Notes under the pieces: generated by a model | What the model saw: only the letters and a program-made list of their open reading frames with translations | Told to the model about the DNA's origin: nothing | The model's database searches: none | Source of the DNA: Polytrichum commune | Lineage: Eukaryota; Streptophyta; Polytrichopsida; Polytrichales; Polytrichaceae | Assembly: GCA_950295325.1 (NCBI GenBank) | Contig: OX485804.1 | Coordinates: forward strand, 34,040,001-34,104,000 | Direction: 5' to 3' | Length of the DNA: 64,000 bases | Made by a program: the position numbers and the translations under genes | In this document: one piece after another, positions 3,024 through 62,552 of the stretch | How positions within the stretch are numbered: the stretch's first letter is position 1 | Layout of the letters: the number at the start of each line of letters is the position of its first letter

Positions 3024-3839
3024 CTCGGGGGGGGGACACTGGTGAAAAACGTAGGAACTACGTGCGATAAAATATAGGGTCTTGTATAAAAATTTGGCGT
3101 AAAATTTGTAAAATTATTAGATGTAGTATAGGGTGCTCTGGGATTGTGAAACATGATTATATGTAATATAGCATTTGACAAAACATGATCAAATTACCTA
3201 AGTGGTACATATAAAATAGCATGGAGAAAAAGCAATAGTTTCAAAAATTAAATACTTTGCCACCAAAATATAAAACCAGCCCCACTTTGGACCTTTCGGA
3301 AATTGCATAAATGAAAAAAAAAATGCCGGCTAATTGCCTAAATACATTAGGAAATGGGGGCTATCAACCGATAAATTTTGCACTCTCTAGGCCCACTCTT
3401 GGGTAAAAATTGAAAAATCCGAGCTACCTCCAGAAAGCTCGGCAATTAGCCGTTTCCTCTACAGAACTCCCCGGACTCTGCTCCCGCCTTCTCTCGCCCC
3501 CGCCTCCATCAACCCTAGTTGGCAGACCTCAACTTGGTGCAAGAGTGGCACTCTGCTTCTCCGAGGCCTTGGAACAATCGGAGGATTCGGCTTCCAAACA
3601 ATCGAAAACAATCAAGCAATCACCACCGGAAGCCTGGACATATAAGTAATATAGGGTACCATAAAATCAACCATCCAAGAATTTATAATTACCAATAGGG
3701 TGCAAATAATCACAACAATTTACCATTATTTCAAAAATTAGCATCCCTTATAACCCTTTCTCATAGGTAAATAGCGCCCATTTTAATAGGTCATTATCGC
3801 AGGTGTATGCAAAATATACAAGGGAGTGCCCCCCCCGAG
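3024..3839. mobile_element. 816-bp hAT-like element inside tnp2 exon
   Basis: The ends are inverted: CTCGGGGGGGGGACAC on the left and GTGCCCCCCCCGAG on the right. An 8-bp direct repeat CATTTGTC flanks it (3016-3023 and 3840-3847). Taking out the element and one repeat joins tnp2 codons exactly between GLSF and VSIHACING. There is no transposase inside, so it is non-autonomous. The 8-bp duplication fits hAT, but the G-rich terminus is not the classic hAT CAGGG. A similar element lies at 37542-38283. Confidence 0.85.
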
Positions 3840-4844
3840 CATTTGTCTCAATACATGCCTGTATAAATGGGTGTTGTTTATTCCGAAAGGAGCTAGAAGG
3901 CGCAATGAATTGTCCAAAATATGGACAATTGAGGTACAAATCCGAGTCAAGCAGGACACCAATGAAAGTTCTGCGGCATTTTCCACTCATACCATGGCTA
4001 CGAAGGATGTATCGATGTACATCTCTCGCAAAATTAAATAAATGGCATATCGAACGGAAGAACTGTAATGGCAACGTGGAATACGTTCCAGACTCAAAGG
4101 CGTGGAAACACATTGACTCTGTATATCCAGGGTTTGCGTTGGAGGAAAGGAACATACGACTAGGACTTGCTCTAGACGGTGTCAATCCATTCTCAAACCA
4201 ATCCCTAAGTCATTCCACTTGGCCAGTTGTACTACTGAACTACAAATGGTTGGTGACAAAGCGGTTTTTCTTAATGTTGGCCCTCATCATTCATGGGAAA
4301 GAGAGTGTCACATCTGAAAATGTGGACGTGTACCTTGCTCCATTGATTGAAGAATTGCAGCAACTTTGGGAAGGCATTGATGCAGTAGATGCATCTGCAG
4401 AGAGTGTGAATAGGAGTTTCACGTTGAAGGCCATCCTCATGTGGTGCATCCATGACTTCCCGGCATATGGCCTAGTGTCAGGGCAAGTGACAAAGGGGTA
4501 CAGAGGGTGCACCGAATGTGGTCCTAGTGTAACAACCCGACGTTCTGAAGCGTTAACGAAGAATGTATATTTAGGGCATCGTCGTTTCTTGAACCGAACC
4601 CATCCATATCGAAGATTGCAGAGAGCATTTGATGGATCAACCGAGACCCGTCCACCACCAAGACAGCTAAGTGGCCGTGACATAGTCCGTTATGCGACGA
4701 GGAGAGAAAAGTGGTTGGCTGACTCCCCACGAAACAGACCAGGGGGGTTAAACGATCCAATACATGACACAGGCGTGAAAAGACTGTCTGCATTATTTGC
4801 ACTTCCATATTGGCAGGTGAGTGTTTAGTTCCAAACCCATTGTC

Positions 4845-6480: not shown

Positions 6481-7424
6481 TTGCATTTTTGAAGCTCTGT
6501 TATAGTGTCGTGGTAATCCAAATAAATAATGACACCAAAAAGTGAGTGTGTGGTGTAGACGACACGCTGCAGAACTGACCCGAAGGAAGAGGTCAAGGGA
6601 AGACATGTGACGTCAACACCGGGGTAGGAGATTGGAGTACCCAAGCAGCATGCAAGAAGAGGCCTTCACAACCTGGTTTCCTGTTGTAGTGCAAGATGAC
6701 ATCAACCAAGGGATTGATGTATCCATGGATGTTTAAGCATTGCTAATGCCACCTTCAAGGAACGCCAAATCCTACAAGTCTATGTATGCGTATGGCAACC
6801 ACATCAGGGTTCGTAGCGTAGAATCAAACATGAATACGTGTGATAGTGGTGTGGCAGCTACCTTTTTGCAAGCATGTCGTGCAAGCAACAATTCACGAAA
6901 TGTACGCACAACAAATTTAGAATACATAGGATGGGTGAAAGAAATAATAGGGGTAGACTATGGAGAGTTTGAGCTGATAGTTTTGTATTGCACATGGGTG
7001 AGAGCTAACCTCCGGGGCGTCGGAGCAACAATGAAACGTGACGACTACGGCTTCACATTAATCAAATTCGATCGTATCATCCCATATTCAGCAGACTCCT
7101 TTGCATTTCCCCTCCATGTGCAACAAGTCTTTTTTGTGGACGATGTAGAGAATCCCGAATGGAAAGTTGTGATGAGGAAAGAAGCTCGAGGTGCAAGAGT
7201 GGCATCTACATCCGAGAGGAGACCTGAGCCACTTAGTTTAGTTCTAGGCAGAGATGAAGACTACCGTGGATTGAGATCTAATATTTTAAACGAAGATGTG
7301 CAACCTCGTGCACCTGTGCTAGAAGGATGCACAATACTAGAAGCCGAGGACGTTCATGCAGCAATGCAAGAAAGAGAGGAAGAGCCAGATTACAATGAAG
7401 ATAGATTATAGTGTGGTCTTTTGA

Positions 7425-38651: not shown

Positions 38652-38892
38652 CCACGGGAGTTCACCCGTGACCTCCAACAGATGACACTAACCACGAGGG
38701 AACGATCGTGACCAACCAAAGCCATGCAACACACGACGCAATATCCATAACACATGCATGAAGGTCTCCAAGTAATAGCCGACAACAGAAGTGAGGGTCA
38801 AATAATATATTGAATGAATCATAAATGCCACAGTGGGCACAAAATATGTCACAAAATCAAACAATTGTTGTAACCACGGGTGAACACCCGTA
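38652..38892. repeat. Three degenerate palindromes, left subterminal
   Basis: Copies start at about 38652, 38692 and 38874; the last is nearly full (CCACGGGTGAACACCCGT). They lie between the left end and the tail gene. Confidence 0.65.
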
Positions 38893-38918
38893 GACAATCT
38901 ATGTCCATAAAAGTCAAG

Positions 38919-39475
38919 CTATCTACTAGAGGAGTATGAATTGGCAATCCTACTCAACATTTTGCCATGGCCTTGTCTTTGACGAAGACTACATTCCTTG
39001 CGCTTGACGCCTTCAAGGCGTTGTTTCTCGTTCATTAAAACTATGGCATCCCGAAGTTGTTTCACCCTTGCAGACACGTAATCAGACATTGATGAGGTGT
39101 TATTGGGCGAACTACACCGCCAACATCCAGAACTGTTTCCTGAGCCCGTGGGTGAACTGGGGTGAGTGCTTAGGAGAGCGAGGTGTCTCTTCGCCCGAGC
39201 TCGTGTGAACGGAGCTGCAACCACGGGCGGGACCGGAACAACAACCTCAACCGCGACCGGAACAGCCTCCGCAACCGCAACGTCGCGAGTTTGGAGCATC
39301 TGTGTCTAACACAACAAATCACATGATGAAATTAGTATCACTAGGATGAAACAGAACCGCAATTCGTTGGAAGTAATGTGGATATTGAATTACCTTAGGG
39401 CATGGAGATGTCACTTCGGCAGAGTCGGGGCTAGAATTCGCAGCACGTTGTCGACGAGGTGGAGTGGCAATATTG
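38919..39475 (-). CDS. Small tail gene, Pro/Val-rich with C-terminal charged helix
   Basis: Two exons join in phase: one ending at 39394 (donor AAG|GTAATT) reads RRQRAANSSPDSAEVTSPCP, and one from 39299 (after GACACAG) to the stop at 38919 reads MLQTRDVAVAEAVPVAVEVV onward. Features are an Ala/Val/Pro-rich start, a basic TRARAKRHL patch, a Ser-rich middle, and a helix DYVSARVKQLRDAIVLMNEK before an Arg/Ser-rich end. No domain recognised. It may be the last exons of the longer minus-strand gene or a separate accessory gene. Its upstream start is unclear. Confidence 0.45.
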
Positions 39476-39720
39476 TTCTTAGGTCGCGTTTGCAATGGGG
39501 AATGTTGTTAGGATACATGGAGATAAGATTGCATGGAAAAAAGACATTGTGTCAAAGAGGAGCCCTTGGTACCACAGAGAAGATGAACATGTGCAAAAAG
39601 ATTAAATAGGAGCTGGCTAAGTCATCCACATTAAAGTTCTCCATAACAACCATGATTAACAAGAACACAATATTCAGAGTCCAAGTTGACTAATAAACTC
39701 ATTGACTCAACTACCACATA

Positions 39721-39922
39721 GCCACGTGTGTTCACCCGTGGGACTTTGACTCTACAACTCTCCACAGCCACGGGTGAGCACCGGTGGGACATTGACTCAA
39801 CAACCACATTGCCACGGGTGAACACCCGTGGGACATTGACTCAACCACCACATTGCCACGGGTGAACACCCGTGGGACATTGACTCAACCACCACATTGC
39901 CACGGGTGTTCACCCGTGGGAC
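39721..39922. repeat. Palindrome array, 5 copies
   Basis: Copies at about 39721, 39767, 39811, 39855 and 39899 (period 44-46). The spacer is of the GACTCAACAACCACATT type, found only here. It lies in noncoding DNA between two minus-strand coding blocks. Confidence 0.85.
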
Positions 39923-40150
39923 ACTGCCAGTCTTTCAATGTGGTTTAGAATAGTCTGGTATTCTCTAACAGCGTAGTAGAAAACCATTGTGGAAGCATTC
40001 ATGACCACAACATGTTTGAATGAACAAATCCACAAGAACAAAACAACTTGCAAATGCAGCAGACAGGCAACAAAGTATCAACTCCACTTATTTCAATTAT
40101 TATGTACACTAAGTACACATGTGCAGTATTGGTGGCCCCAACAGGGGGTT

Positions 40151-40929
40151 CTACATAGTCATCTGCGCCTCTGGAACTATACGGGCAGAAGTCAATGTTT
40201 TATGTCTAGCTAGTGACTGATTAAAAATATGTGAACTAGGCAGCTCTAGATTGAAGGGTTCCTGGCCTGACGGATAAGGGTTGCTCCCCACAAAATCTGG
40301 CACATACTGTTGAGAACTCAAGAGCCTTTGCAGGTAATTATGCAAAGGATCCAAGCTCTGGTTTGACACAAATGGGGGCGGGTTAATGTAGCTCCCAGGA
40401 GGGTTAGGGATGCATTTGTAAGGGGAGTCATCTACAAGTAATGTATTTCTAAGAGTTGGGGGCTTCGAGTGCGGCACTGGAAATATAGATTATCAATAAA
40501 TGCGCTCAGGTCTTTCATGAAGAAGCTCGAATTGGCGTTCACTGGACTAGGAAGAACTTGTCCTCTCTCATCCTTCAGAGTGTCACACAATTCTTGCCCA
40601 AACACATACTCTGGCTGTCTACAACCTTTGAAGAAGTGTCGGACAATTGGCTGAAGATTCTTCATAAGCTTCGACGACCAAATGACAACATGGAAGTTGG
40701 AAAGAACAAACCGCAGAAATCGGAGTAATCCTTTCCGCAGTATGAGGGCACTATACGGGAGGAAGAGTGGAGCCAACTCCCCAGTTATCAGGGGGCTATG
40801 TTGCGATTCAAGAGTCTTCCTCATGTTCGCATTGTCGCACTTTGTTGGCCTCACAAGGATCCCGTTGACATCCAGCACTAACCAAATCTTCTCTCTCCGA
40901 TGGACAATAGTGCTTGGAGAGGTGAGGAT
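40151..40929 (-). CDS. FCP1/NIF-like HAD phosphatase domain, frameshifted
   Basis: The exon opens after CGCCAG|ATCCTC and runs to TAG at 40153-40151. It carries WLVLDVNGILV near residue 20, LRKGLLRFLRFVLSNFHVVI with IWSSK, and after a frame change near 40480 the block LLVDDSPYKCIPNPP. This order (nucleophile loop, PG(L)xxFL, WSS, DDSPYK) is that of FCP1/SCP-type HAD phosphatases, which act on phospho-Ser/Thr of the RNA polymerase II tail and other targets. The canonical DxDGT second Asp is Asn here (DVNG), as in a plant NIF-like subgroup, so catalysis may be altered. Phase does not fit cleanly with the exon upstream, so it may be a separate gene or follow an indel. Confidence 0.75.
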
Positions 40930-41192
40930 CTGGCGATGACAAAATTGAAGGTCATTTTATAGGATCTTTGTCTACGGAAAAATAGATTATCAATTATGGT
41001 CAACTAAGGAAACAATATGCTCGATAGCTATGTGTATGCAACAGCAAGAGATGTGTATGCCTGCATATTTATGAATTGCGTTTGCCAGCTAGGATTGATT
41101 ATCATACTGAAGGGGTTATATCGACATTGGCTGAATGACCTGTTGCCAAATCCACACAAGAATTATGAGATACAATGTTCAATGTCAGCTTC

Positions 41193-41450
41193 TCCCACGG
41201 GTGAACACCCGTGGGCAAAAGATCAAAACCCACTGGTGAACTGAGAAGTAATATAATAACTGAGAAGTAAAATGAAAACATAGACGAACATATGAGTGGA
41301 GTTATATTCCTAATATTGGGATATTCCAAGTGCCCATGGGTGAACACCCGTGGGCCTCTCACAACTTCAGATTGAGTGGCCCACGGGTGAACACCCGTTA
41401 TGCCTCTCACAATTTCAGAGTGAGTGGCCCACGGGTGTTCACCCGTGGGC
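41193..41450. repeat. Palindrome array, 4 copies
   Basis: Copies at 41193, 41332, 41379 and 41427; the last three have period 47-48 and spacer CTCTCACAACTTCAGATTGA. They lie between the 41583-43326 exon and the FCP1-like exon. Confidence 0.85.
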
Positions 41451-41582
41451 CACTCAACTCATTTGCTTAGAAGAGGCCACAAGTGAGCACATAGTTATTT
41501 GCCTACTACTAAGTAATCCAAATAATTACATTTAATTATCTCACTATTACTTGGAATACTCAAATATGACTGCATATATTAC

Positions 41583-43326
41583 CTGGAGCTTGAATGTGGG
41601 GGGGATCCGCAGCAATTGCCGGTTGTGCTTCAGCAATACGACTGTCGCGAGGGCTTGAGGACTCAGCAGCTCCAACATGCACTTCCCTTCTAGGTGACTC
41701 AAGCACTTCAGCAATGTCAATAACCTCCATAGTGGAATCAACAACACTGCCCTCTTGAGCGGCCGAAGAACCCGGGAATTGACCTCGTCCTTGACGATGC
41801 TTTGGGGCTTCGAACTCTATCCATCTCTTCCTCATTTTCTTCAATGAAGCAGCTTGAAGAACATGCTTCACCTTCACTGCTTCACAAAACGCCGGAGTGG
41901 ACAGATAAGCGAACATCTTGTGATAGTCGTAAGACTTGAACAAAAACGCAAGATTGAGTCGCACGTTTTCGGGAACCTCCACCAAAAGTTTGTCGACATA
42001 TGCAGCAAAATGCACTTTGTCCTTCCCCTCCGAATCCTTGCCCGTGTCAGGCCTCCCAGCCCACAACGGGTGCGGGTCATCAACAAAGTTGAGCTTTACT
42101 CTGTTGTAACCAGGCGTCCCGTAGCCTTCATCCTCGGAATCGTCTGTCATGTAGTCGGCAAACGTTCCCCGAACCCGAGGCGGAGCTCGATCTCTCACCT
42201 TCACCCTCACGTCAAGCTCCACGCATCTTTCGGGCAAATCGTCATCACTATCCAGACATATCACTTCAGTTCGAACGACCACCTCAGCCTGATTAGATGG
42301 TTCCGCTACTGAAGGCTCCTCTGCAACCACCACGGCAGCGGAATCCTGGTTTGGTCGCCCTTGACCTAGGACCTCCAGAACAGCAGCGGCAACCTCCTCC
42401 ACAGGCGAACTGACGTTCAATTCGATGTTTTTCCCTTCAACATTCTCAGCTTCGGCCATGATTGTATCCGGCAAAACATCTTCCACATCCGCTGCCTGGC
42501 CCGACTCGACCTCGCGATCCAAGCCAGAATGATCCATCGCCTCCAAAGACCGAGAATGATCCCCAACTTCAGGGGGACGAAGAGATGAATGTCCCCTTCG
42601 GGGAGCTTTCACCTTACTCCTGGCAGACTTTTTTGATGTAGGCAATCCAGCAGGATTAGCCTCCAAATGAACTTCGGGCGCTGAATGAATACGCTCCTCC
42701 TCGTCCGATACATCCATAGAGTGAATAGGAAGTTGTTCATCGCTACGTCCCCCTGAATCTGACAGAGCAAACCCGCGGCCGGGTGTAGATGGGATCCCAG
42801 ACGAAACAGATCCCACATGGAGTCGGTCCCTGTGCAAGGGTTGTTGTCGAACTTCCTTGACATTGGAAGCTTCAACGTGCGCCTCACCCTCGCGCTCCCC
42901 CTCCACAACCCCCACGGGTGCGCACCCGTGGGGTACATGCTCCGGGGACATGGCCATCAGGGACATGGCCATCAGGGACATGTCCTCTGGGGACAACACC
43001 ATGGAAGACGCCTTAAAGTTCAAGGCCTCCGTCTCAGCTTCCTTCATGGCATTCGCAATTGCAGCATCAATTGCGTCGTCCAAAACATCCTCCTCTACCT
43101 CCTCCTCCTCTTCATCCTCCTCGGACGGGACATTCGCACGCTTCCTCCTTATCTCGCGCTCAACGATCGTATCGTCATCTGTGCGAATTTCTTCTTCTTC
43201 CAACTCCTGTACATTTCCTTCTTTGTTCCACCTTTGAAGGTTCCAGTCAAATGCTAAAAGCATTTTAAGTATCGCCACATCCATGCTCTCAACAGGCACA
43301 ATATTGACAACCTTCATACCCATGGC
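41583..43326 (-). CDS. Giant-element minus gene: large acidic exon
   Basis: The exon starts after GTGCAG|GCCATG and ends CCAG|GTAATA, 581 codons. The start MGMKVVNIVPVESMDVAILK continues the previous exon in phase 0. Residues 30-75 are rich in Glu and Asp (EDEEEEEVEEDV). The middle is Ser/Glu/Val-rich and low in structure. The last 200 residues look folded (FADYMTDDSEDEGY, ENVRLNLAFLFKSYDYHKMF). A palindrome copy lies in frame at 42910-42933 and encodes PHGCAPVG. No domain recognised. Confidence 0.65.
42910..42933. repeat. Single palindrome copy within coding exon
   Basis: A perfect copy with GC centre sits in the acidic exon, in frame, next to a short repeat that encodes MSLMAM twice. All other copies are in noncoding DNA. 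Confidence 0.9.
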
Positions 43327-43430
43327 CTGCACATAACAATGCATGAGAAATATCCTATCAATCAGAAATGTAAATTCAATTTATCCTTATTGGGAACCTC
43401 ACACATTAGTCTAACCTAGCAGGTTCCAAG

Positions 43431-43694
43431 GCCCACGGGTGTTCACCCGTGGGCTCATGCCAGCAACTGAGAGACATAGCCCACGGTTGTTCACCCGTGG
43501 GCTAATGCCAACAATTGAGAGACATGGCCCACAGGTGAACACCCGTGGGCTAATGCCAGCAAATGAGAGACATAGCCCACGGCTGTTCACCCGTGGGCTA
43601 ATGTCAGCAAATGAGAGATATAGCCCACGGGTGTTCACCCGTGGGCTAATGCCAGAAAATGAGAGACAAAGCCCACGGGTGCTCACCCGTGGGC
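43431..43694. repeat. Palindrome array, 6 copies, exact 48-bp period
   Basis: Copies start at 43431, 43479, 43527, 43575, 43623 and 43671. Spacers are variants of TAATGCCAGCAAATGAGAGA plus CATA. The array fills the intron between exons 43798 and 43326. Confidence 0.95.
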
Positions 43695-43797
43695 CCATGC
43701 AACCAAGTGGGAGTTATGAGCCGAGCTCATGCAAACAGATAGATGCATACTCAAAAATGAAAACTATTAATCAGGGGATACTTTATGTAAGACTTAC

Positions 43798-44589
43798 ATG
43801 AGCCACTATATGCGCCTTATTGCCTCCGCAAATATTCAAGAAATAGGAGCCCTCGAGATGTGAAGGCTTGATGATGTCGATGTAAGTCTGCATCCTCAAC
43901 TCCCCCTTAAACAATGTCTTCGCCTCCTCATTGGAATACGTTTTTTTCTCGGAATAACGTTCGTAAAGTCCGGGATAATGCATATCAATCATTCTCTTAG
44001 ATCCGCAAATCCGCAAAGCCACCTCCGAACTCGTTTCGCCCCATTCAGGAAATATGCAAGTTGTAATCCGCAGAGCACTCGATTCGAAGAAGCAATCTCG
44101 GGAAGCAATTTTCTCCTCCTTCGTCCCACGGTAAATTGCATCACAAAATCTAACATTTTTCGGCAAGTGCGTCCTGAGAACATTGTGTATGAAATGCCGG
44201 TCTGGAAACTCCGACACCACAGTCCACAATCGGGGTGAACTGACCAGACCTGGATAATCACGACGAAGACCTTTCAAAGTGAAATCCACTACCTCCTTGA
44301 AGCGCAAACCACCGTCTGATCCAGACTTGAAGCCAGGAAGAAACCTCGTGTCCATGTACGCATGCAATACTGGTGACAAAAATGGTCCACCATCGACTTT
44401 GTACTTGTTGTCAATAGACAACACGACATGCTCCTGTCTAACCTCGGTGGGATGCGAGCCCAGTATGTTTCTGACCCCTTCTATAAATCGGTCAGGAATA
44501 GGTAGTTTTTTCCTGGTCGGATTCATAGCGTTGACAAGGTACTCCGCTCCAAGTAAGTCGACCAGTCGTTCTCGCTGGAGTTGCCAAAC
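43798..44589 (-). CDS. Giant-element minus gene: exon with MNPTRKKLPIPDRF
   Basis: The exon opens after CCAATAG|GTTTGG and ends CAT|GTAAGT, exactly 264 codons, phase 0 on the downstream side. It reads VWQLQRERLVDLLGAEYLVN, then RFIEGVRNILGSHP, a central DCFFESSALRITTCIFPEWG and an end GSYFLNICGGNKAHIVAH that flows into the next exon. Composition is globular with no low complexity. I do not recognise the fold; the ICGG...AHIVAHAMGMKVVNI stretch loosely recalls a glycine-rich nucleotide-binding loop, which is only an impression. Confidence 0.7.
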
Positions 44590-44654
44590 CTATTGGCAAG
44601 CTTCCACACTCTTCATAATTCCCGGTCAATAGTTTCCTTCTGTTCTACATTGAC

Positions 44655-45061
44655 TATATATATCTCGGGGTCGGAACAAGACATTGTGCCATTGCGATAT
44701 AAGTCTCATTTTTCTTCTTCCGATTAACCGCCCATTCGCGCATAGTCTTCAAAGTATGTCGAGGGTGCTCCTCTCCATCTCTGGTGACGAGGATTTGATC
44801 CGCAGCCAGGTCGAGCTCCATCTCTGTCAATCCTCGAAATTGCTTCATGTCGTTCTTCACAACTTTCTTCGACTTAAATCCTTTCGCCTCCTTCGCTAGA
44901 GCTCCTGTTTTGGGATCTATGTAGTCCCCACTCTCGTATTCAGTGAACACCCTCTCCCACTTCCTCCATATGTCATCACTCAATACAGGCAGCACGTGCT
45001 CCATTATCAAGTTGTTCTCCTTCTCAACTCGGAACGTCCACATTATGCACGTAATGAAGGC
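44655..45061 (-). CDS. Giant-element minus gene: exon with AFITCIMWTF
   Basis: The exon opens after CACACAG|GCCTTC and stays open for about 130 codons. It reads VEKENNLIMEHVLPVLSDDI, GDYIDPKTGALAKEAKGFK and a basic AVNRKKKNETY. Its donor near 44.66 kb is unclear, and the DNA from there to 44590 has competing frames. Soluble, charged, no domain recognised. Confidence 0.6.
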
Positions 45062-45119
45062 CTGTGTGAAACATAATATTAGAGGCATTCTCAATGATAG
45101 CAACAGTATGATAGCAAAG

Positions 45120-45237
45120 GCCCACGGGTGAACACCCGTGGGCACATCAACCTGGTTGATGCAAAGGCCCACGGGTGTTCACCCGTGGGCGCATCAACTA
45201 GGTTGATGCTAAGGCCTACGGATGAGCACCCGTGGGC
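45120..45237. repeat. Palindrome array, 3 copies, cut by solo LTR
   Basis: Copies at 45120, 45167 and 45214 (47-bp period). The spacer ATCAACCTGGTTGAT is itself an inverted repeat. The fourth copy is at 47716-47739. Taking out the LTR and one ATCAA puts it 47 bp after the third copy. Confidence 0.95.
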
Positions 45238-45244
45238 GCATCAA

Positions 45245-47694
45245 TGTCGAGGTCACCTTCAAACCCTCAACAAACTTAGACGGTGTAACCCGCTGCTGAC
45301 CGGTTTACATGGAAGTTACTCCCACCAAAATTTGACCCTTCATTTGATTTCCATTTCTAGTGAAGGTGTTTGCACTCATATAATCTTAGTTTTGTGATAC
45401 ATAATCTTAATGCTCTTTTAAATCCTCAAGGACAAATTGACCTAAGTTTTCAAGTTTATGTTCCCCAAAATCTAATGTCAAGGTTAGGTGTTCCTAAACC
45501 TTTATTAGATTTTACATCTTATATGGATTTAGTAACATAATCTTTTTTCTAATCAAGAGCCCTTTATAAATCTCTAAGGATAAAGTGTCCAAGTCTTTAA
45601 GTTTATGTTCCCCGAAACCCTAATGTCAAGGTTAAGTGTTTTTAGGGAGAACATCGTTCATACATACAATATCTTTCATGGTTTGAATGATCGTAAAAGA
45701 TTCTTAATCCATTTAAGAATGTGTGTTTATGATAAGTTCACAATTCCTTTGAAAGTCAAAACATACTCCTTCACTAAAGTATATTCATAAGATTTTCTTC
45801 CGATACTCAATTCCTAGAGTTCACATTCATATGCATGAAATCTTTCATTCCAAATGCTTGCCCTATGGTTACTCAAGTTCTTTCATTTGTAATCCCTAAA
45901 TCATCATTTTAGAGTTTCTTTGGAGATCTTTAGGAAATCCTACGTAATCATTTCAAGTTCATTTGAATGACAAGATGCGTTTAGAGATGACATCTTGGAT
46001 TGTCGTTTGATGTGGCCTAATCGACGGCCATCTCCTTTCGGTCCTCCTCTTGATGGTGAAACCGATATCTCCACCGAGTAAAGTACCTTGTACTCTTTAA
46101 CCCATGATTCTCCGATTCCAACTAACTTAGATGAAATTGCTCCGATTCCGAAAATGTGTCCTCCAAGTTCAAAATGTAATTTCTCAAAGAGGTCCTTCTC
46201 TTTTTGCTATTTTTAACCCGCCTTCAGTTTTCAAACTTCTCCAAACAAAACTAGGCTTGGGTGTTTGTTTTACGGCCGTACACCTTCAAATTCTCCTATT
46301 TGCACATTCCCCAAGTTTTTGAGGACTTTCCGAATCCTTCCAAGTCTTCGAGCGCAAGGATCTTTCAATTCTTTGAATCTCGAATGCCAAGGATCTTTCG
46401 ATCCTTAATGTTTTCTAAACTCGCGGCCTCCAGTCTCAAGGGCCTCCAGTCACTCATGGGCCTCCAGTCTCACGGGCCCCCAGTATCCAAGGCCTCCAGT
46501 CTTCTTCAAGTCCGAGGATAATATTTCAACCCTTTAAGTTCGAACGCCTCCGAGGATATATTTCAATCCTTTAAGCTCCGCGAGGATATATTTCAATCCT
46601 TTAAACTCCGCGAGGATATATTTCAATCCTTTAGTCTTCAAGCGCGAGGATATATTTCAATCCTTTAGGTCTTCAAGCTCGAGGATCATATTTCAATCCT
46701 TTAGGTCTTCAAGCTCGAGGATCATATTTCAATCCTTTATGTCTTCAAGTCCAAGGATCATATTTCAATCCTTTAGGTCTTCAAGTCCAAGGATCATATT
46801 TCAATCCTTTAGGTCTTCAAGTCCGAGGATCATATTTCAATCCTTTAGGTCTTCAAGTCCAAGGATCATATTTCAATCCTTTAGGTCTTCAAGTCCGCCA
46901 CCTCAAGTTGCTTGCGTTGAATGAGGTGAATTAGGTGCCATATGTGGCCCCTTTATATAGGCTTTGAATTCAAAGGAATTTAAGATGTGGCGGTTAGGTC
47001 TTTAAATGTTTGTATTTACTAATTTTAGCCATGTATGTTCTCACAGTCTAAATTCAGCCCGGTCAGATCTATAATTAGACTGCCACGTGCTTAAAATAGA
47101 TCTACCCATGAAGTACATACGGGCATGTTCTAACCGCCTAGATGTGCCATTGGTAGTTACAACCCCCCCTTCATCCATTCATCCGCATTGCACCCATCCA
47201 TTCATTCTCATTGCATAAGTTCATTAAAAAGAAATGGGTAGTTTATGTTCATCCGAAGGGATTTCATCCCCCTCGGGTATGTCCTTTCATCCTCCCCCTT
47301 TGTCCTAAGTGTTTACCACCTTTCTCACTAACCTATCTACTAATTGGTGAGGTGGCTCGGTGAGGTGGCCCCGTGCCCTAATCTGCTCTCGGTGTTGCTC
47401 CCTGTTCCCGGGCCGCTCCCAGCTTGTTCCCAGCTCCCGGTGTTCCCGGGGGTCGTTCTCCCCACTCCCGGTGTTCCCCGCGCTGCTCCCCGCTCCCGGT
47501 GACGCGTGGCAGCCTGTAGCTGCCAGCCCTAAGTCCCATCGAGGCTGGTGGATCGCGGATGTTGGTCACTTTATCTCTCCATCTCCCTCTCAACGTCCAT
47601 CTTCGGGCCCCTAGGCCCCCTTCTGCTTCAAGCTATGTGTTTACTCCTTAGCGCTTCTGACACCGCCGCCGGTGCGGTGCGGTGTGGCTACACA
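45245..47694 (-). mobile_element. 2450-bp solo LTR, copy 2, inserted in giant element
   Basis: On the minus strand it starts TGTGTAGCCACACC and ends GTGACCTCGACA, and is flanked by ATCAA (45240-45244 and 47695-47699). It shares its last ~90 bp and scattered blocks (TAACCTTGACATTAG, AACTTGAAA...AAGGA) with copy 1 at 21365-23976. The insertion lies in an intron of the minus-strand gene and splits a palindrome array at a spacer. Confidence 0.9.
46530..46900 (-). repeat. 36-bp tandem repeats inside solo LTR copy 2
   Basis: About eight to ten units of TTCAAGTCCAAGGATCATAT plus TTCAATCCTTTAGGTC. Older units to the left read GAGGATATATTTCAATCC. This differs from the 37-bp repeat of copy 1. Confidence 0.8.
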
Positions 47695-47715
47695 ATCAAC
47701 CAGGTTGATGCCAAG

Positions 47716-47739
47716 GCCCACGGGTGAGCACCCGTGGGC
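47716..47739. repeat. Palindrome copy right of solo LTR
   Basis: Fourth member of the 45.1-kb array, with the same spacer type (ATCAACCAGGTTGATG). Confidence 0.9.
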
Positions 47740-47836
47740 ACATTCTACAGATGGACACACCCATCGATATAACCTCCACATCATCTATGTGCCAACAAAT
47801 TAAATAAATTTCGAATGTAAAAGATGTAGAAAATAC

Positions 47837-49138
47837 CTTCCACTTCTTGAAGGCTTCCGAATTGTTGGACTTCTCGCGTGTGGTACGCGCAGGTCTTCCA
47901 CGCCTTATCCATGTCTTTCAAGAGTGCTGAATGCATTCCGTAAACAATGGAAAATGCTTTCTATATTCCGTGTCGAGGTTGAATACGCCAGATAGGTGGA
48001 ACAGAGGGTCGTCATCACCTTCGGGGGGCCCAGACAACGTTGCACGGCCATTTCGAGAAGAAACTTTTCACTTCCTCTGTGCTGCTGGGGTCATTCACAT
48101 ACTCCCGGCAGGCTGCTAAGGTGTGTTGTCCGTTGACCACATGAAAAGTTTTGTTCTGCAGGTCCGCAAATTTTGACGGTTTTCTCCGCCTATCGGATGG
48201 AACAATTGTCAAGAAGTTGGGGTGGATCTTCGGAATGAAGGCATAGTTGAACAACCACGTCTTCATCTCCCTCAAGTGCGCCTCAGAAATGGGACGGCAA
48301 TTGTACCCTACATCTCCCCGCTCTATATTATCAATGCTGACGAAACCATTGACACCTTCGCCGAATATCCACACCCTGTCGTATTTATTCTTGAATATGA
48401 TCATATCCATCAACCTGTCTCCAACCGATTTGTCTGGAGGTCCTTGGGGTGAACGCTTCGGAATCTTCTCGAGTTCAAGGAAGGGACCCTCTTCGGAAGT
48501 TTTCTTCTTCCCCTTCTTCGACACAATGTCCTTGCTGGGAGTCTCTTCAATTACCAATTCTTGTCTTTCAGCAGGTCTCGTCTTCTTCCTAGATGTCTCG
48601 GTTCGGCCATCCCCGGGATCCTTCCTCTTCCCATCGCGGATTTGTTTCTTCTTCAAAGACGTTTCCAACCTTGCCGCCTTTGCCTCCTCAACTATAACCT
48701 GCACTCTTCTGAGAGCAGATTTGTAGTCTTGCTCAATCATCACTGATCTCTCCTCCACGCTCCTCGTGTGCACATTTGTCTCGCAGTATTCTATGCAATA
48801 GGTGAGAAATTCACCGTTCAATAAGCGGATGTTTTCGCCCTCGTTGTTGAGCTCTTCATTCACATCCGCGTAGGAGAAAGACTCCACAAAGCCAGCAACC
48901 TTGAAGTCCTTCTTCCTTTCTGAGGACTTGCACATTATCAATACACGTTGTCCATCTGCTTGAACATCCAATACCTACTTCGCCTTCAGATATTTTCGCC
49001 ATTTGGAATTAGGACCAGTTTTTGTGTACAACGACAATACTGTTGTCTCACCGAAGCCACTGTACTGCATGAACCATTTCACTTCAGGTCCCAATACCTC
49101 AATCTCGTAATTCACCGCTCTGCCCAATCCTCCGGAGA
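47837..49138 (-). CDS. Giant-element minus gene: ParB/DGQHR-like exon, with in-frame TAG and frameshifts
   Basis: The exon opens after CATCTACAG|TCTCC and ends AAG|GTATTT. It continues the H3-like start with VSGG, then VLGPEVKWFMQYSGFGETTV. In-frame TAG sits at 48975-48977. Further on is a basic coiled stretch (RVQVIVEEAKAARLETSLKK, KTRPAERQ). The domain near the end has YNCRPISEAHLREMKTWL, FLTIVPSDRR and FHVVNGQHTLAACREY (48094-48150). The NGQHTLAA signature fits the DGQHR/ParB-like nuclease superfamily, which includes ParB centromere-binding proteins and DndB. The frame shifts at a six-C run (48023-48028) into PEGDDDPLFHLSGVFNL, and again near 47.92 and 47.87 kb. Confidence 0.7.
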
Positions 49139-49243
49139 CTGTAGATGAAAATGCAATTGTTAGTAATCCACATACTATAAAATCCCATCTCGAAATTTAT
49201 GAATCACAAAAGATGGAAGTGCACATAGGTATTGTGCTTATAC

Positions 49244-49314
49244 CTTTACGTGTTGTTTGCTTAGTTCTTGCCATGTCTATTCATATACCGGAATACTTCA
49301 ACACCTATATTCAC
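49244..49314 (-). CDS. First coding exon: histone H3 tail mimic MARTKQTTRK
   Basis: ATG at 49274-49272 encodes MARTKQTTRK, then donor AAAG|GTATAAG at 49244/49243. The next exon adds VSGG, so the start reads ARTKQTTRKVSGG against ARTKQTARKSTGG of histone H3: ten of thirteen identical, with K4, R8 and K9 kept. An in-frame TGA two codons upstream shows that this ATG opens the frame. Met removal before Ala would expose the H3-like N-terminus. The exon starts after TTCATTCAG at 49314, and a noncoding exon at 49963-49911 (donor CAG|GTAAGT) lies upstream, so the 49.4-49.8 kb array is in a 5-prime UTR intron. Confidence 0.75.
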
Positions 49315-49426
49315 CTGAATGAAACAACAATTGTCTATTACAAATCTATGTCTAGATCTTTTATCACCCAATCTCGATGCAAGTATATCAATCCTCAAAC
49401 TCATCCAACAGAATTGTTCTCTTGAG

Positions 49427-49836
49427 GCCCATGGGTGTTCACCCGTGGGCTCCCCCAAACAGATGAGTTGAGAGGCCCACGGGTGTTCACCCGTGGGCTC
49501 TCCCAAACAGATGTATTGAGAGGCCCACGGGTGTTCAACCGTGGGCTCCCCTAAACAGATGAGTTGAGAGGCCCACGGGTGTTCACCCGTGAGCCTCTCC
49601 CAAGCGGATGAGTTGAGACGCCCAGGGGTGCTCACCCGTGAGCCTCTTCCAAACATACGAGTTGAGGGCTCACGGGTGTTCACCCGTGAGCCTCTCCCAA
49701 GCAGATGAGTTTAGAGGCCCACAGGTGCTCACCCGTGAGCGTCTCCAAAACAGATGAGTTGAGAGGCCCACGGGTGCTCACCCGTGGCCTCTCCCAAACA
49801 CATCAGTTCAGAGGCCCACGGGTGTTCGCCCGTGGG
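49427..49836. repeat. Palindrome array, 9 copies
   Basis: Copies start at 49427, 49475, 49523, 49571 and then every 46-50 bp to 49813. Spacers are of the type TCTCCCAAACAGATGAGTTG plus AGAG. Several copies have compensated arm changes (GCTCACGGG...CCCGTGAGC at about 49666). Confidence 0.95.
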
Positions 49837-50920: not shown

Positions 50921-51230
50921 AAAAAATTAATTGTACTTAGTAATGTTCGCCATACTAAGTAGTTTAGTTAACAATACTTAGTAAAATAACTGAGTATTAG
51001 GAAGAAAACTGGTAGTACTTAGTGAGATAACTCAGTATTAGTGAGATAATCAAAAGCAATTATTTGGATATCTAAGTATAATTAGGAAGATAACTAATAT
51101 TACGTAGTGAGATAAATACATATTAGTAAGATAACTAACTATTAGTAAAATTAAGATATTTTTCACATCTCAACTAATGAGAGTACTACTGTAGTAAGAT
51201 AACTAATGATACACAAAAAATGATACTTAG
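50920..51230. repeat. Degenerate ACTTAGTAAGATAACT repeats
   Basis: About ten loose units of TAGTRAGATAACTNAGTATTA type. They lie in the central intergenic part of the giant element. Confidence 0.5.
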
Positions 51231-58573: not shown

Positions 58574-61500
58574 ATGGAGAGCGTGCCTCACATGGGAGAA
58601 GAGGTTAGTGACATATCCCTAACTTGCACCTACATTTTCCCACGGGTGCACCCGTGGCCACAATGAGACCGTACAACCCCGTACGGCCTGGTATGCCACG
58701 GGTGTTCACCCGTGGTGGACTTTAGAAACCGGTTGGGGGCCCACGGGTGTTCACCCGTGGGGGACATTCGAATCCGGTTGGGGCCCCACGGGTGTTCACC
58801 CGTGGGCCACTCTCGAATCCGGTTGGGTTCCCCACGGGTGTTCACCCGTGGGCCACTCTCGAAACTCGTTGGGGTCCCCACGGGTGCTCACCCGTGGGCC
58901 ACTCTCGAAACTTGTTGGGGTCCCCACGGGTGTTCACCCGTGGGCCACTCTCGAAACTGGTTAGGGAGCCCACAGGTGTTCACCCGTGGGCCACTCTCGA
59001 ACCGGTTGGGGGCCCACGGGTGATCACCCGTGGGCCACTCTCGAACAAGGTTAATGGTGTCTACTTCAGTTCTAACCCATTTGTTTTTATGAGTAACATA
59101 CTAGTGATAAGGGGCATTCTTTCAATGGGGATATGATAGGCAACACATACTACAATTGGTATTTGTGAAGTGAGGTACTGCTCAATGTATGTTGACATAC
59201 TTTGATTTTGATTTTCAGATTTCAGATTTCAGATTACATTGGACTGTCGAGGACGGACTTGAAGGGGAAGGCCGTTGTGCTCTTTGATGATGAGGGCCAT
59301 GCTTTGTGTGATGGATTGGTTTGCAACACAAATCCGTTGGATTGTGTAGACAATAGAATCCTAGGGGTTGAGGATGTTGGAGTTATTATGTTGAATCCAA
59401 CTGACAATGTTATCTCGCGGGATTGGGAGAATACTCTGCACCGCTGGCCACTCTCACTCACCAAATTTGAAGGACATACATTGGCGGAAATATTGTTGGT
59501 CCATCATAATGCGACTCGCGAAGTTCAAAGTCATCGGCGCTTGCTTGGAAAACGCCAATACAACACTGCAAGGATGTGTGCACCTCGGCCACCTGGGAAG
59601 AAAATTTGGGGAGCCACTGAGGAGCATGCGCGGATGTTATCAGCGGTGGATTGTTGTTCTGCTCGTTGTTGCCAGGTATTCCCAAGGCCTTTGGTGATTA
59701 GTATTCGGGAGCACTACTTCGCATTGCCATTCAATGCTCGAAAGCTCATAGCCCTGTCGGTGTTCCAAACCATCCAAAAACATGAGCAAACCGGTCTTGA
59801 GACGGTTATTTTGGAAGGGAGAACAATATGCACTCGTGCATGGATGAACATCTTTATGATATCAAGGGCACAATATAATAGGAACAAGGCCGAAAGCTTG
59901 ATGGGGGTCAGATCCCGAGATCATGGAAATACTGGAACCAGAAAACCTAGGGCGAATACAGTGCAGGCACGAGCCACCCTTGGAGTATTGGTTGAGGGTA
60001 GGGCGGACGCCATGCCCCATATGACTCGACTCTTTCCACTGGTGAAAAGATAGGAATGGAGATGCTCCCTGTGGGAACAACGTGGTCCAATCTGTTGCAG
60101 GAAGTGAACAACTTGGACGGAGACCTAGGGTACATGCCCAACTCTATGTCGAGTTTCAGCCGCATACATCGACAACATTACAAGCAGTATGTGATAAAGA
60201 GCCCCGGTGACAACTTCTCTCGTTGTGGAACTTGCGCAGCGTTCAAGGATTTGTTGCGAATACACACAAAGAACACACCTGGTCACTTGGCCATCTCGAA
60301 TGCTAGCCTTCGTCATCTAGCACTGCAAGAGGCTCATAGGAACAATTACTATAAAAATAGGATTTTGTCAAAGTATGCTCCCAATGAGGTGCTTTGTATA
60401 ATCCATGACAAAATGGATTATGGGAAAACGGCGCTTCCCGTTTTCGCGCACAAGAACAAACGTGTTGACAAATACGAGCGATTCCCAATATCCATTGCGG
60501 GGATGATTGCACATGGTCACTCAGATGTGAATTATGCGCATTATGTCCTTGATATGTACCCATCCGATGCCAACTTCACTATTACCTCCATTATGAAGTT
60601 GCTTTGTCAACTTGAGGTACAACTAGTCTGCTCTAGTCGACACATTCCTATCTCTTCTATAGGTGATCCTTTACACGACGCACTGGTGGTTGGTGTAGAG
60701 AAGTGTTCAGGAGTACTTCCATTGGCGCCGCCCGAAGTTATCCCACCTACAAGTTTGCCACCCCTCCTGCTGGTTCAAATGGACAATTGTGCTAAAGACA
60801 ACAAATCAAAATACAACATGTTGTTTTGGTCAATTCTGACTGCAAAGGGAATTTTTCGGAAAGTCAGAGTGTTTTTTCTAATTGTTGGACATACGCATGA
60901 GGATGTGGATGCAATGTTCGGGAGGTTTGGACAAAGGCTGAAGATTGAGGATTGCCATACACTACCAGACCTCATGGCCTCGTTCATGGCTGCTGGTGAT
61001 CCAACTATTGTGCCCTCCTTAATCCACGAGGTTGCTGATTTCAAGGAATGGGTGAAGGGATACTACAATGAGTTTGGTCAAGATCGACTCATTGGGCATT
61101 CCAAGGCGCACCAATTCTGTTTTTATGTGGACCCTCAAGGAGTGCCATTGATGCAGTACAAAGTGTATTGTACAAATCCAAGCTGGGTCCCAGAAGGGGG
61201 AATTGCTCTTTGGAATGTGGACCCTATCACAAAGAAGACCATGGTCCCTCCAGGTTAGTCTGTCCCTTCTTGGTTTTGTGTTGGAATTGCGTAGGAAATA
61301 CATGATGAGAAGTATGTGTCCCACGGGTGTTCACCTGTGGGTAGTTAGGCCGTGGTAAGCCCAATATGTGGCCCACGGGTGTTCACCCGTGGGCAGTTAG
61401 GCCTTGGTAAGCTCAAGAAGTGGCCCACGGGTGTTCACCCTTGGGCAGTTAGGCCATGGTAATGCTCCAAGCTCATTGTGTGTGGCATTTTGTAGGGTGT

Positions 61501-62275
61501 CCCCGTCCCGTGCCAAAAAGGGAGATGAAAGATTTTGTGAACATAAAGCTTGGAGTGCAAGGATTTATTAAGTATTGGAAGGATACGGCAGATCAAGATA
61601 GTTCCGGTCAATATATGGAGTCCATTGCGCCAACAATTGTATATTGGGAGAATGTGCTTGCGGCTATGGATCATCCCTTACTACCAACTCCATCTGAACT
61701 TAGCGATCCTTTCTGGCCTGCTACACGGTTCTCCATTGCACCAACCCTACATGTGGATAACGTGCATCTACTTGAGGAAAACGTCACTAACTATGCTTAC
61801 GTGGGGCCAGCTAGCTCTCGACTTGTTGAGTCCTTCCGTCCCGGCGCACATATCAGGGTCGGCCATTATGTGTTACTACGTCCTAGTGAGGATTGTCCAA
61901 ACCCAGTGACGAGTGATTTCTGAGCCCAATTTGGCACATCTTGGTCCTCATCCTCGTTCCATTGAGATTGTATATTATGTACCGCTCCTTGGCCAAAGGA
62001 ACAAGAAGACCTTAGACGAACGTTATGAGGAATGGGACACAGCCAAATGTTTTCGATGGACGAGGCTCAAGGAATATCCACCAGCTCATCAATCCCTAGA
62101 TTGTGTTGTGGCATCATGGGCAAGACAAAGGAATGCGTCCGATGACAATGTACTCATCCCAGCGAGGCAAATTCTTTTCGCAAAGGATAATTTGGATCGA
62201 TGTGTCAGAGGCGAGAAAATGACTGATGGAGATACATTCGAGGATGGGGTACCAACAGAAGACCTCGGTGATTAA
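58574..62275 (+). CDS. DDE-type transposase candidate (DUF7869-like), frameshifted copy
   Basis: Exon 1 (58574-58603) gives MESVPHMGEE with donor GAG|GTTAGT. Exon 2 (59226-61253) follows a TTTCAG acceptor in phase 0. Exon 3 (61496-62275) follows TTTTGTAG, phase 1. The N-terminal half has a Cys pair and RTICTRAWMNIFMISRAQYN, as in DUF7869 proteins. The core has IIHDKMDYGKTALPVF, then VQMDNCAKDNKSKYN about 125 residues on, then IVGHTHEDVDAMFGRFGQRL; the Asp to Glu distance is 38 residues, typical of a DDE nuclease. The C-terminus has a small HYVLLRPSED...IVYYVPLLG barrel-like part. Frames change near 60.0 kb and near 61.915 kb. Both introns hold palindrome arrays. Confidence 0.75.
58639..59035. 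repeat. Palindrome array, 9 copies, intron 1 of DDE-like gene
   Basis: The first copy is short (CCCACGGGTGCACCCGTGG), the next eight fall at about 58694, 58739, 58785, 58832, 58879, 58925, 58970 and 59012. Spacers are of the type CACTCTCGAATCCGGTTGGG. The array takes most of the intron. Confidence 0.95.
61319..61446. repeat. Palindrome array, 3 copies, intron 2 of DDE-like gene
   Basis: Copies at 61319, 61371 and 61423, exact period 52. Spacers contain AGTTAGGCCRTGGTAAG. Confidence 0.95.
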
Positions 62276-62302
62276 AGATGCATTGCTCAATCCTCGATGT
62301 CT

Positions 62303-62552
62303 TAGGGTGAACACTCGTGGGTGGGCACCCCAGGGTGATACCATCTATAATGTTTGATGCTCAATTTTAATTTTGTGAGCATTAATTAGAGACAATTGAC
62401 AATTTTCCCGGGGATGTTCAAATTACCACTTGTAAAGGCTACGTTTTTGTGAGACTTCATGGGATTTGTCATATTTTCCAACATGATTAATATGTGGGAG
62501 TCATCCAATGTGCATGGTGGGAGGCAAATTGTGCACGGGTGTTCACCCTTGG
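62303..62552. repeat. Two degenerate palindromes, right subterminal
   Basis: A scrambled copy (GTGAACACTCGTGGGTGGGC) at about 62308 and a better one (CACGGGTGTTCACCCTTGG) at 62534-62552, after the stop of the DDE-like gene. Confidence 0.65.

Follow-up and report, generated by a model that had tools for sequence, protein, structure and literature searches.

A histone H3-like N-terminus on the first coding exon of a repeated, probably mobile gene family

Why does a gene of a repeated family begin like the tail of histone H3? The question is raised by a minus-strand locus in the window, the stretch of 64,000 nucleotides analyzed here, in which positions 49274-49244 read ATGGCAAGAACTAAGCAAACAACACGTAAAG and encode MARTKQTTRK plus one base (31 nt). 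This start was scored against residues 1-9 of histone H3, ARTKQTARK. Eight of the nine residues were identical, with T in place of A7, and H3 residues S10 and T11 were replaced by V and S in the window copy. The reading frame 5' of Met 49274 is stop-Ile-Asp-Met, with an in-frame TGA three codons upstream, so this Met is the first in its frame. The remaining 2,877 ATG starts in the window matched H3 1-9 at four of nine positions at most. In 60 windows simulated with an order-2 Markov model, seven starts had five matches, one had six, and none had more; a match of 8/9 was never reached, and chance is therefore a poor explanation of the H3-like start. Other histone-tail starts in the window comprised five H4 matches at 5/11, compared with 8/11 for the H3 start. 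The initial annotation had reported that an ATG behind an in-frame stop encodes MARTKQTTRK and that A1, R2, T3, K4, Q5, T6, R8, and K9 of H3 are kept; direct reading of the minus strand supports both statements. A second ATG, at 49284, lies 10 nt upstream in another frame and opens MNRHGKN followed by a stop (49264-49284, minus strand). This short frame overlaps the H3-tail start and could regulate or limit its use. The RNA structure of exon 1 plus the intron showed nothing unusual (z -1.01).

All parts of the gene model lie on the minus strand. Coding exon 1 (49244-49274) is preceded by a 5' leader (49275-49314) containing the in-frame stop and the ATG at 49284, and the AG ending at 49315, preceded by a pyrimidine-rich stretch (11/15), may be the acceptor that closes a 5'-leader intron. 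Predicted intron 1 (49139-49243, 105 nt) has GT-AG ends and a TACTAAC motif whose branch A lies 21 nt before the intron end, a normal acceptor distance. Exon 2 (47837-49138) begins with VSGG and encodes a conserved body with basic clusters; the join to VSGG was read by eye, and read-through translation gives VSGG in the same frame. The same intron followed by VSGG had been proposed in the initial annotation, and the expected ends and branch motif are present, the splice being a prediction from sequence. Predicted intron 2 (45062-47836) contains palindromes and a 36-nt tandem array of 11.3 copies (46503-46897); the related protein P0021 joins exon 2 to exon 3 without this intron. Exon 3 (44655-45061, 3' end approximate) was located by tblastn of P0021, which matched 45064-44621 at 70%, and probable exons 4 (43790-44589) and 5 (41584-43353), both with approximate ends, are open frames placed by position only. 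Rfam and tRNA searches gave no match. The introns mark the host as a eukaryote. The window copy is a pseudogene: a stop at 48977-48975 interrupts exon 2 in frame, and the frame changes near 48024. Any function would therefore belong to intact relatives.

With the window protein as query, 41 related proteins were recovered at 63-85% identity, each representing a 90% cluster from public sources. One of them, P0004 (494 aa, 77% identical to the window protein), begins MARTKQTARKGITTVPMCTS, and its gene call starts MARTKQTARK, an exact match to H3 1-9 (9/9). The alignment of P0004 to the window begins at the ATG, and the P0004 frame is open from the Met through the equivalent of intron 1 into the whole shared body. 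Exon 1 was visible in two copies only, the window and this one relative of 41; the gene calls of the other 40 start downstream, so they are silent on exon 1. Most relatives appear to be gene calls from intron-blind callers, because their starts fall within the intron or beyond it. In a tree built from the window and 28 of the 41 relatives (29 tips; unrooted data, midpoint root, no support values), P0004 paired with P0006, and P0001 was the partner of the window; the two pairs sit on separate branches within one group. The tail would thus predate their split, provided that exon 1 and the body share one line of descent, and A7 is likelier than T7 to be its ancestral state. When residues 1-60 of P0004 were used as the query, P0004 itself was the sole match, and a short-frame query for further H3-like N-termini gave no candidate. 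Profile searches of viral contigs and genome contigs gave 23 and 13 pattern matches, respectively, with 0 confirmed relatives; the exon-1 DNA pattern had no match in either set, and the phage search had none. A plasmid match to a methyltransferase (25% at E 0.1) was taken as chance.

Histone mimicry is the leading explanation of the H3-like start, at a probability of roughly 0.48. A repeated, probably mobile family would carry a 31-nt first coding exon that codes for the beginning of histone H3 and is joined to a conserved body. After splicing of exon 1 to exon 2, removal of the initiator Met in an intact copy would expose A1-R2-T3-K4-Q5-T6-A7-R8-K9, and an intact relative would present K9 in the ARK context with V at S10. 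Once in the nucleus, the tail could dock to host readers and writers of the H3 tail, such as PHD fingers, WDR5-like proteins, chromodomains, and K4/K9 methyltransferases, and thereby tether the element protein to chromatin or divert silencing, to the presumed benefit of the element. Alternatively, the tail may serve as a methylation substrate. Excerpts of PMC6327041 describe binding of H3 10-mers by the KDM5A PHD1 finger and state that N-terminal acetylation blocks this binding at the concentrations tried. An acetylated N-terminal Ala would likewise spoil PHD binding here, and this was counted against mimicry.

Conservation between the window and P0004 bears on whether the tail itself has been kept. 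In exon 1, 9/10 residues are shared; the figures are 8/10 for the first ten codons of the intron, 9/25 for the later intron, and 40/55 for the start of exon 2, with the stop counted as a difference. With two sequences, exon 1 was better conserved than the intron as a whole (p = 0.029) or its later portion (p = 0.007), but did not differ significantly from exon 2 (p = 0.43). Because of the 8/10 in the first intron codons and the exon 2 comparison, constraint on the H3-like tail is suggested only. The check that the initial annotation had proposed, conservation of the first 14 codons in other copies against drift in the rest, comes down to these two copies, in which exon 1 differs from the later intron and not from exon 2, so that it gives no more than this suggestion. 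Beyond the splice, 16 of the 41 relatives cover this region, and 15 of them have GG as at H3 12-13; G12 and G13 of H3, also claimed as kept, are indeed present in the window as VSGG. Residues before the acceptor, in read-through, vary more than VSGG after it, but the 12 rows compared were chosen by a VSGG-like pattern, so the comparison merely illustrates the splice site. When the 25-residue joined N-terminus was composed and searched, 88 PDB sequences matched at E <= 1 (best E 0.016), and the best 60 of the 88 were histone H3, H3 peptides, and H3 variants or chimeras, one of them named Cse4.

The main rival to histone mimicry is passive capture, in which the family acquired, as an expression module, the 5' part of one of the host's H3 genes (leader, start, first codons, and possibly splice donor) and the tail does little or nothing. 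We consider it unlikely, though the strongest of the alternatives. Identity to H3 sets in precisely at the Met and exon 1 stops one base past the K9 codon, the values of 9/10 in exon 1 and 8/10 in the next ten intron codons are as expected of an inherited block, and the GG at H3 12-13 points the same way. Because the opening of the intron is so well kept, an inherited block accounts for the data no worse than selection on the tail does. Against this, P0004 keeps the amino acids exactly, whereas the later intron has diverged.

Sequence searches placed the body in no known family. With the exon-2 relatives and the frames of exons 3-5 as queries, Pfam, NCBIfam, PHROGs, and PDB sequences gave no convincing transposase match. 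P0004 matched 0 Pfam families and shows no histone domain, and no histone-fold family was among the 11 weak Pfam matches of 24 relatives. The strongest of the weak hits were all taken as chance: secretogranin-3 in Pfam (E 0.0047, 1/24 relatives), a hydroxylase of NCBIfam matched by the exon-5 frame (E 0.0019; 17 bits, where the cut-off is 700), an unknown-function PHROG (E 0.013), the ZorA model of PADLOC (E 0.055), and PDB chains matching the body at E 0.25 or worse. VVNGQHTLAAC in exon 2 may resemble ParB. The basic motif K[KR]x[KR] was present in 28/28 relatives tested (of 41) and a bipartite basic pattern in 7/28 only; together these make nuclear entry of the protein of intact relatives likely.

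Candidate subterminal inverted repeats flank the gene: a left arm at 41492-41551 pairs with a right arm at 51034-51096 (79% over 63 columns, the right arm being read as 51096-51034), which is embedded in short tandem repeats or adjoins them. The arms are AT-rich, and no target-site duplication was established for them. A family of many members, a decayed copy, and the candidate inverted repeat suggest that the gene family is probably mobile. The initial annotation had called the product a transposon protein; the label is plausible on these three features, but no transposase family was recognized. If the family were instead a non-mobile host family of chromatin proteins, the H3-like start would be a regulatory tail and the window copy a decayed paralogue. 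The lack of a recognized transposase family and of an established target-site duplication would fit this reading, which we nevertheless find improbable: 41 clusters at 63-85% identity, drawn from public sources, fit a mobile family better, as do the decayed window copy and the candidate inverted repeat, and neighboring genes, for instance one for Transposase_21 in another part of the window, also argue against it. Least probable of all is that exon 1 is unused, with the true start elsewhere and the H3-like codons a relic or coincidence: the downstream gene calls of 40/41 relatives (from callers that do not model introns) and the overlapping upstream ATG would agree with it, but matches of 8/9 and 9/9 occur right after the Met in two copies, the P0004 frame is open from the Met through the entire body, and splice signals are present.

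Other features of the window were also recorded. The Transposase_21 match (E 7.4e-68) lies at 3803-4828 (plus strand) and a DUF4216 match (E 8.2e-8) at 6740-7411 (plus strand), which together we take to be a CACTA-type element. Palindromes of the form GCCCACGGGTGNNCACCCGTGGGC occur at 38653-49834 and 58697-62551, many in arrays with a period of 44-49 nt. The 24-mer palindrome has 36 copies within 3 mismatches, compared with 0.00 expected in shuffles, and its 18-nt core has 43 copies within 2 mismatches. From 38.6 to 49.8 kb, 30/31 core copies lie outside the model exons. In P0002, P0005, and P0006 the 3' ends apparently include a translated copy of the palindrome, and the exact form was found in none of the viral contigs. 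A variant, CCCCACGGGTGCGCACCCGTGGGG, occurs within the open frame of exon 5 (42910-42933); both its outer bases are unlike the common form and their pairing is kept, as if it had been inserted into the frame. A DUF7869 protein (E 3.6e-45; 60056-61258, plus strand) has palindromes before it (58697-59015) and after it (61322-61426). A match to an NLI-interacting-factor-like phosphatase (PF03031, E 2.8e-6) lies at 40432-40956 (minus strand), past the downstream end of the gene.

Counted in favor of histone mimicry were the 8/9 match in the window and the 9/9 match in P0004, their separate branches, TACTAAC, the GG in 15/16, the H3 matches in the PDB, and K[KR]x[KR]. Counted against it were the visibility of exon 1 in two copies, the 8/10 intron codons, p = 0.43, T7/V10/S11, the pseudogene, the bipartite pattern in 7/28, and the overlapping upstream ATG, which could lower use of the start. 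A histone-tail sequence is present in a non-histone protein, at 8/9 in the window and at 9/9 in P0004, which is without a histone domain. The mimic reading of the initial annotation is supported in part, as regards a start that is H3-like beyond chance and recurs exactly in P0004 in frame with the body; splicing and translation of exon 1, selection on the tail, and binding to a reader would complete it. In its most specific form, histone mimicry would mean that a mobile-element lineage gained an exact N-terminal H3 A1-K9 on its own exon, kept it through diversification, and passes as H3 to K4/K9 readers and writers; we propose this only tentatively, with less confidence than mimicry as such. 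If it is true, a selfish element displays the histone code rather than reading it, and phosphorylation at position 10, where V replaces S10, could not release binding at K9. Should the tail be functional, the main chromatin-signaling peptide of the host is carried, in the exact, free N-terminal form, by a repeated, probably mobile family; whether the element evades or exploits H3K4- and H3K9-based silencing becomes directly testable, and T7, V10, and S11 are natural variants for probing the specificity of readers. A passive tail would still be a case of a repeated family having captured the beginning of a histone gene.

Among the titles and abstract beginnings listed from open-licence literature, no element protein headed by an H3 tail was recognized, and in an excerpt of PMC11005252 MARTKQT belongs to a Chlorella CENH3 peptide, a true histone variant. 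Several known systems can be compared with the window family. G9a is a cellular histone mimic. According to excerpts of PMC6513997 and PMC12713659, EZHIP is a non-histone protein in which a brief segment resembling a histone engages histone enzymes or readers, and influenza NS1 is a viral histone mimic (excerpt of PMC10612106); the initial annotation had invoked such viral and cellular mimics. The window family is like NS1, EZHIP, and G9a in having a histone-like peptide on a non-histone protein, with binding in the present case a proposal, and unlike them in that the tail forms the very start of the protein and has an exon to itself, within a gene family that is repeated. To our knowledge, the NS1, EZHIP, and G9a peptides are not free N-terminal H3 1-9. 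In the SNAG-domain factors GFI1 and SNAIL, an N-terminal peptide imitates the H3 tail and occupies LSD1; these are alike in the position of the imitating peptide, and SNAG is not known to have the nine-residue identity to H3. ALP1 is a domesticated plant transposase that is associated with PRC2 and counteracts chromatin silencing (excerpt of PMC4671723). Unlike ALP1, the body described here has no match to a transposase family. We know of no histone tail in ALP1. The chromodomain integrases of chromoviruses are a case in which a mobile element uses the H3 tail code for targeting; these integrases read the H3 tail, whereas the protein of the window family would display it.
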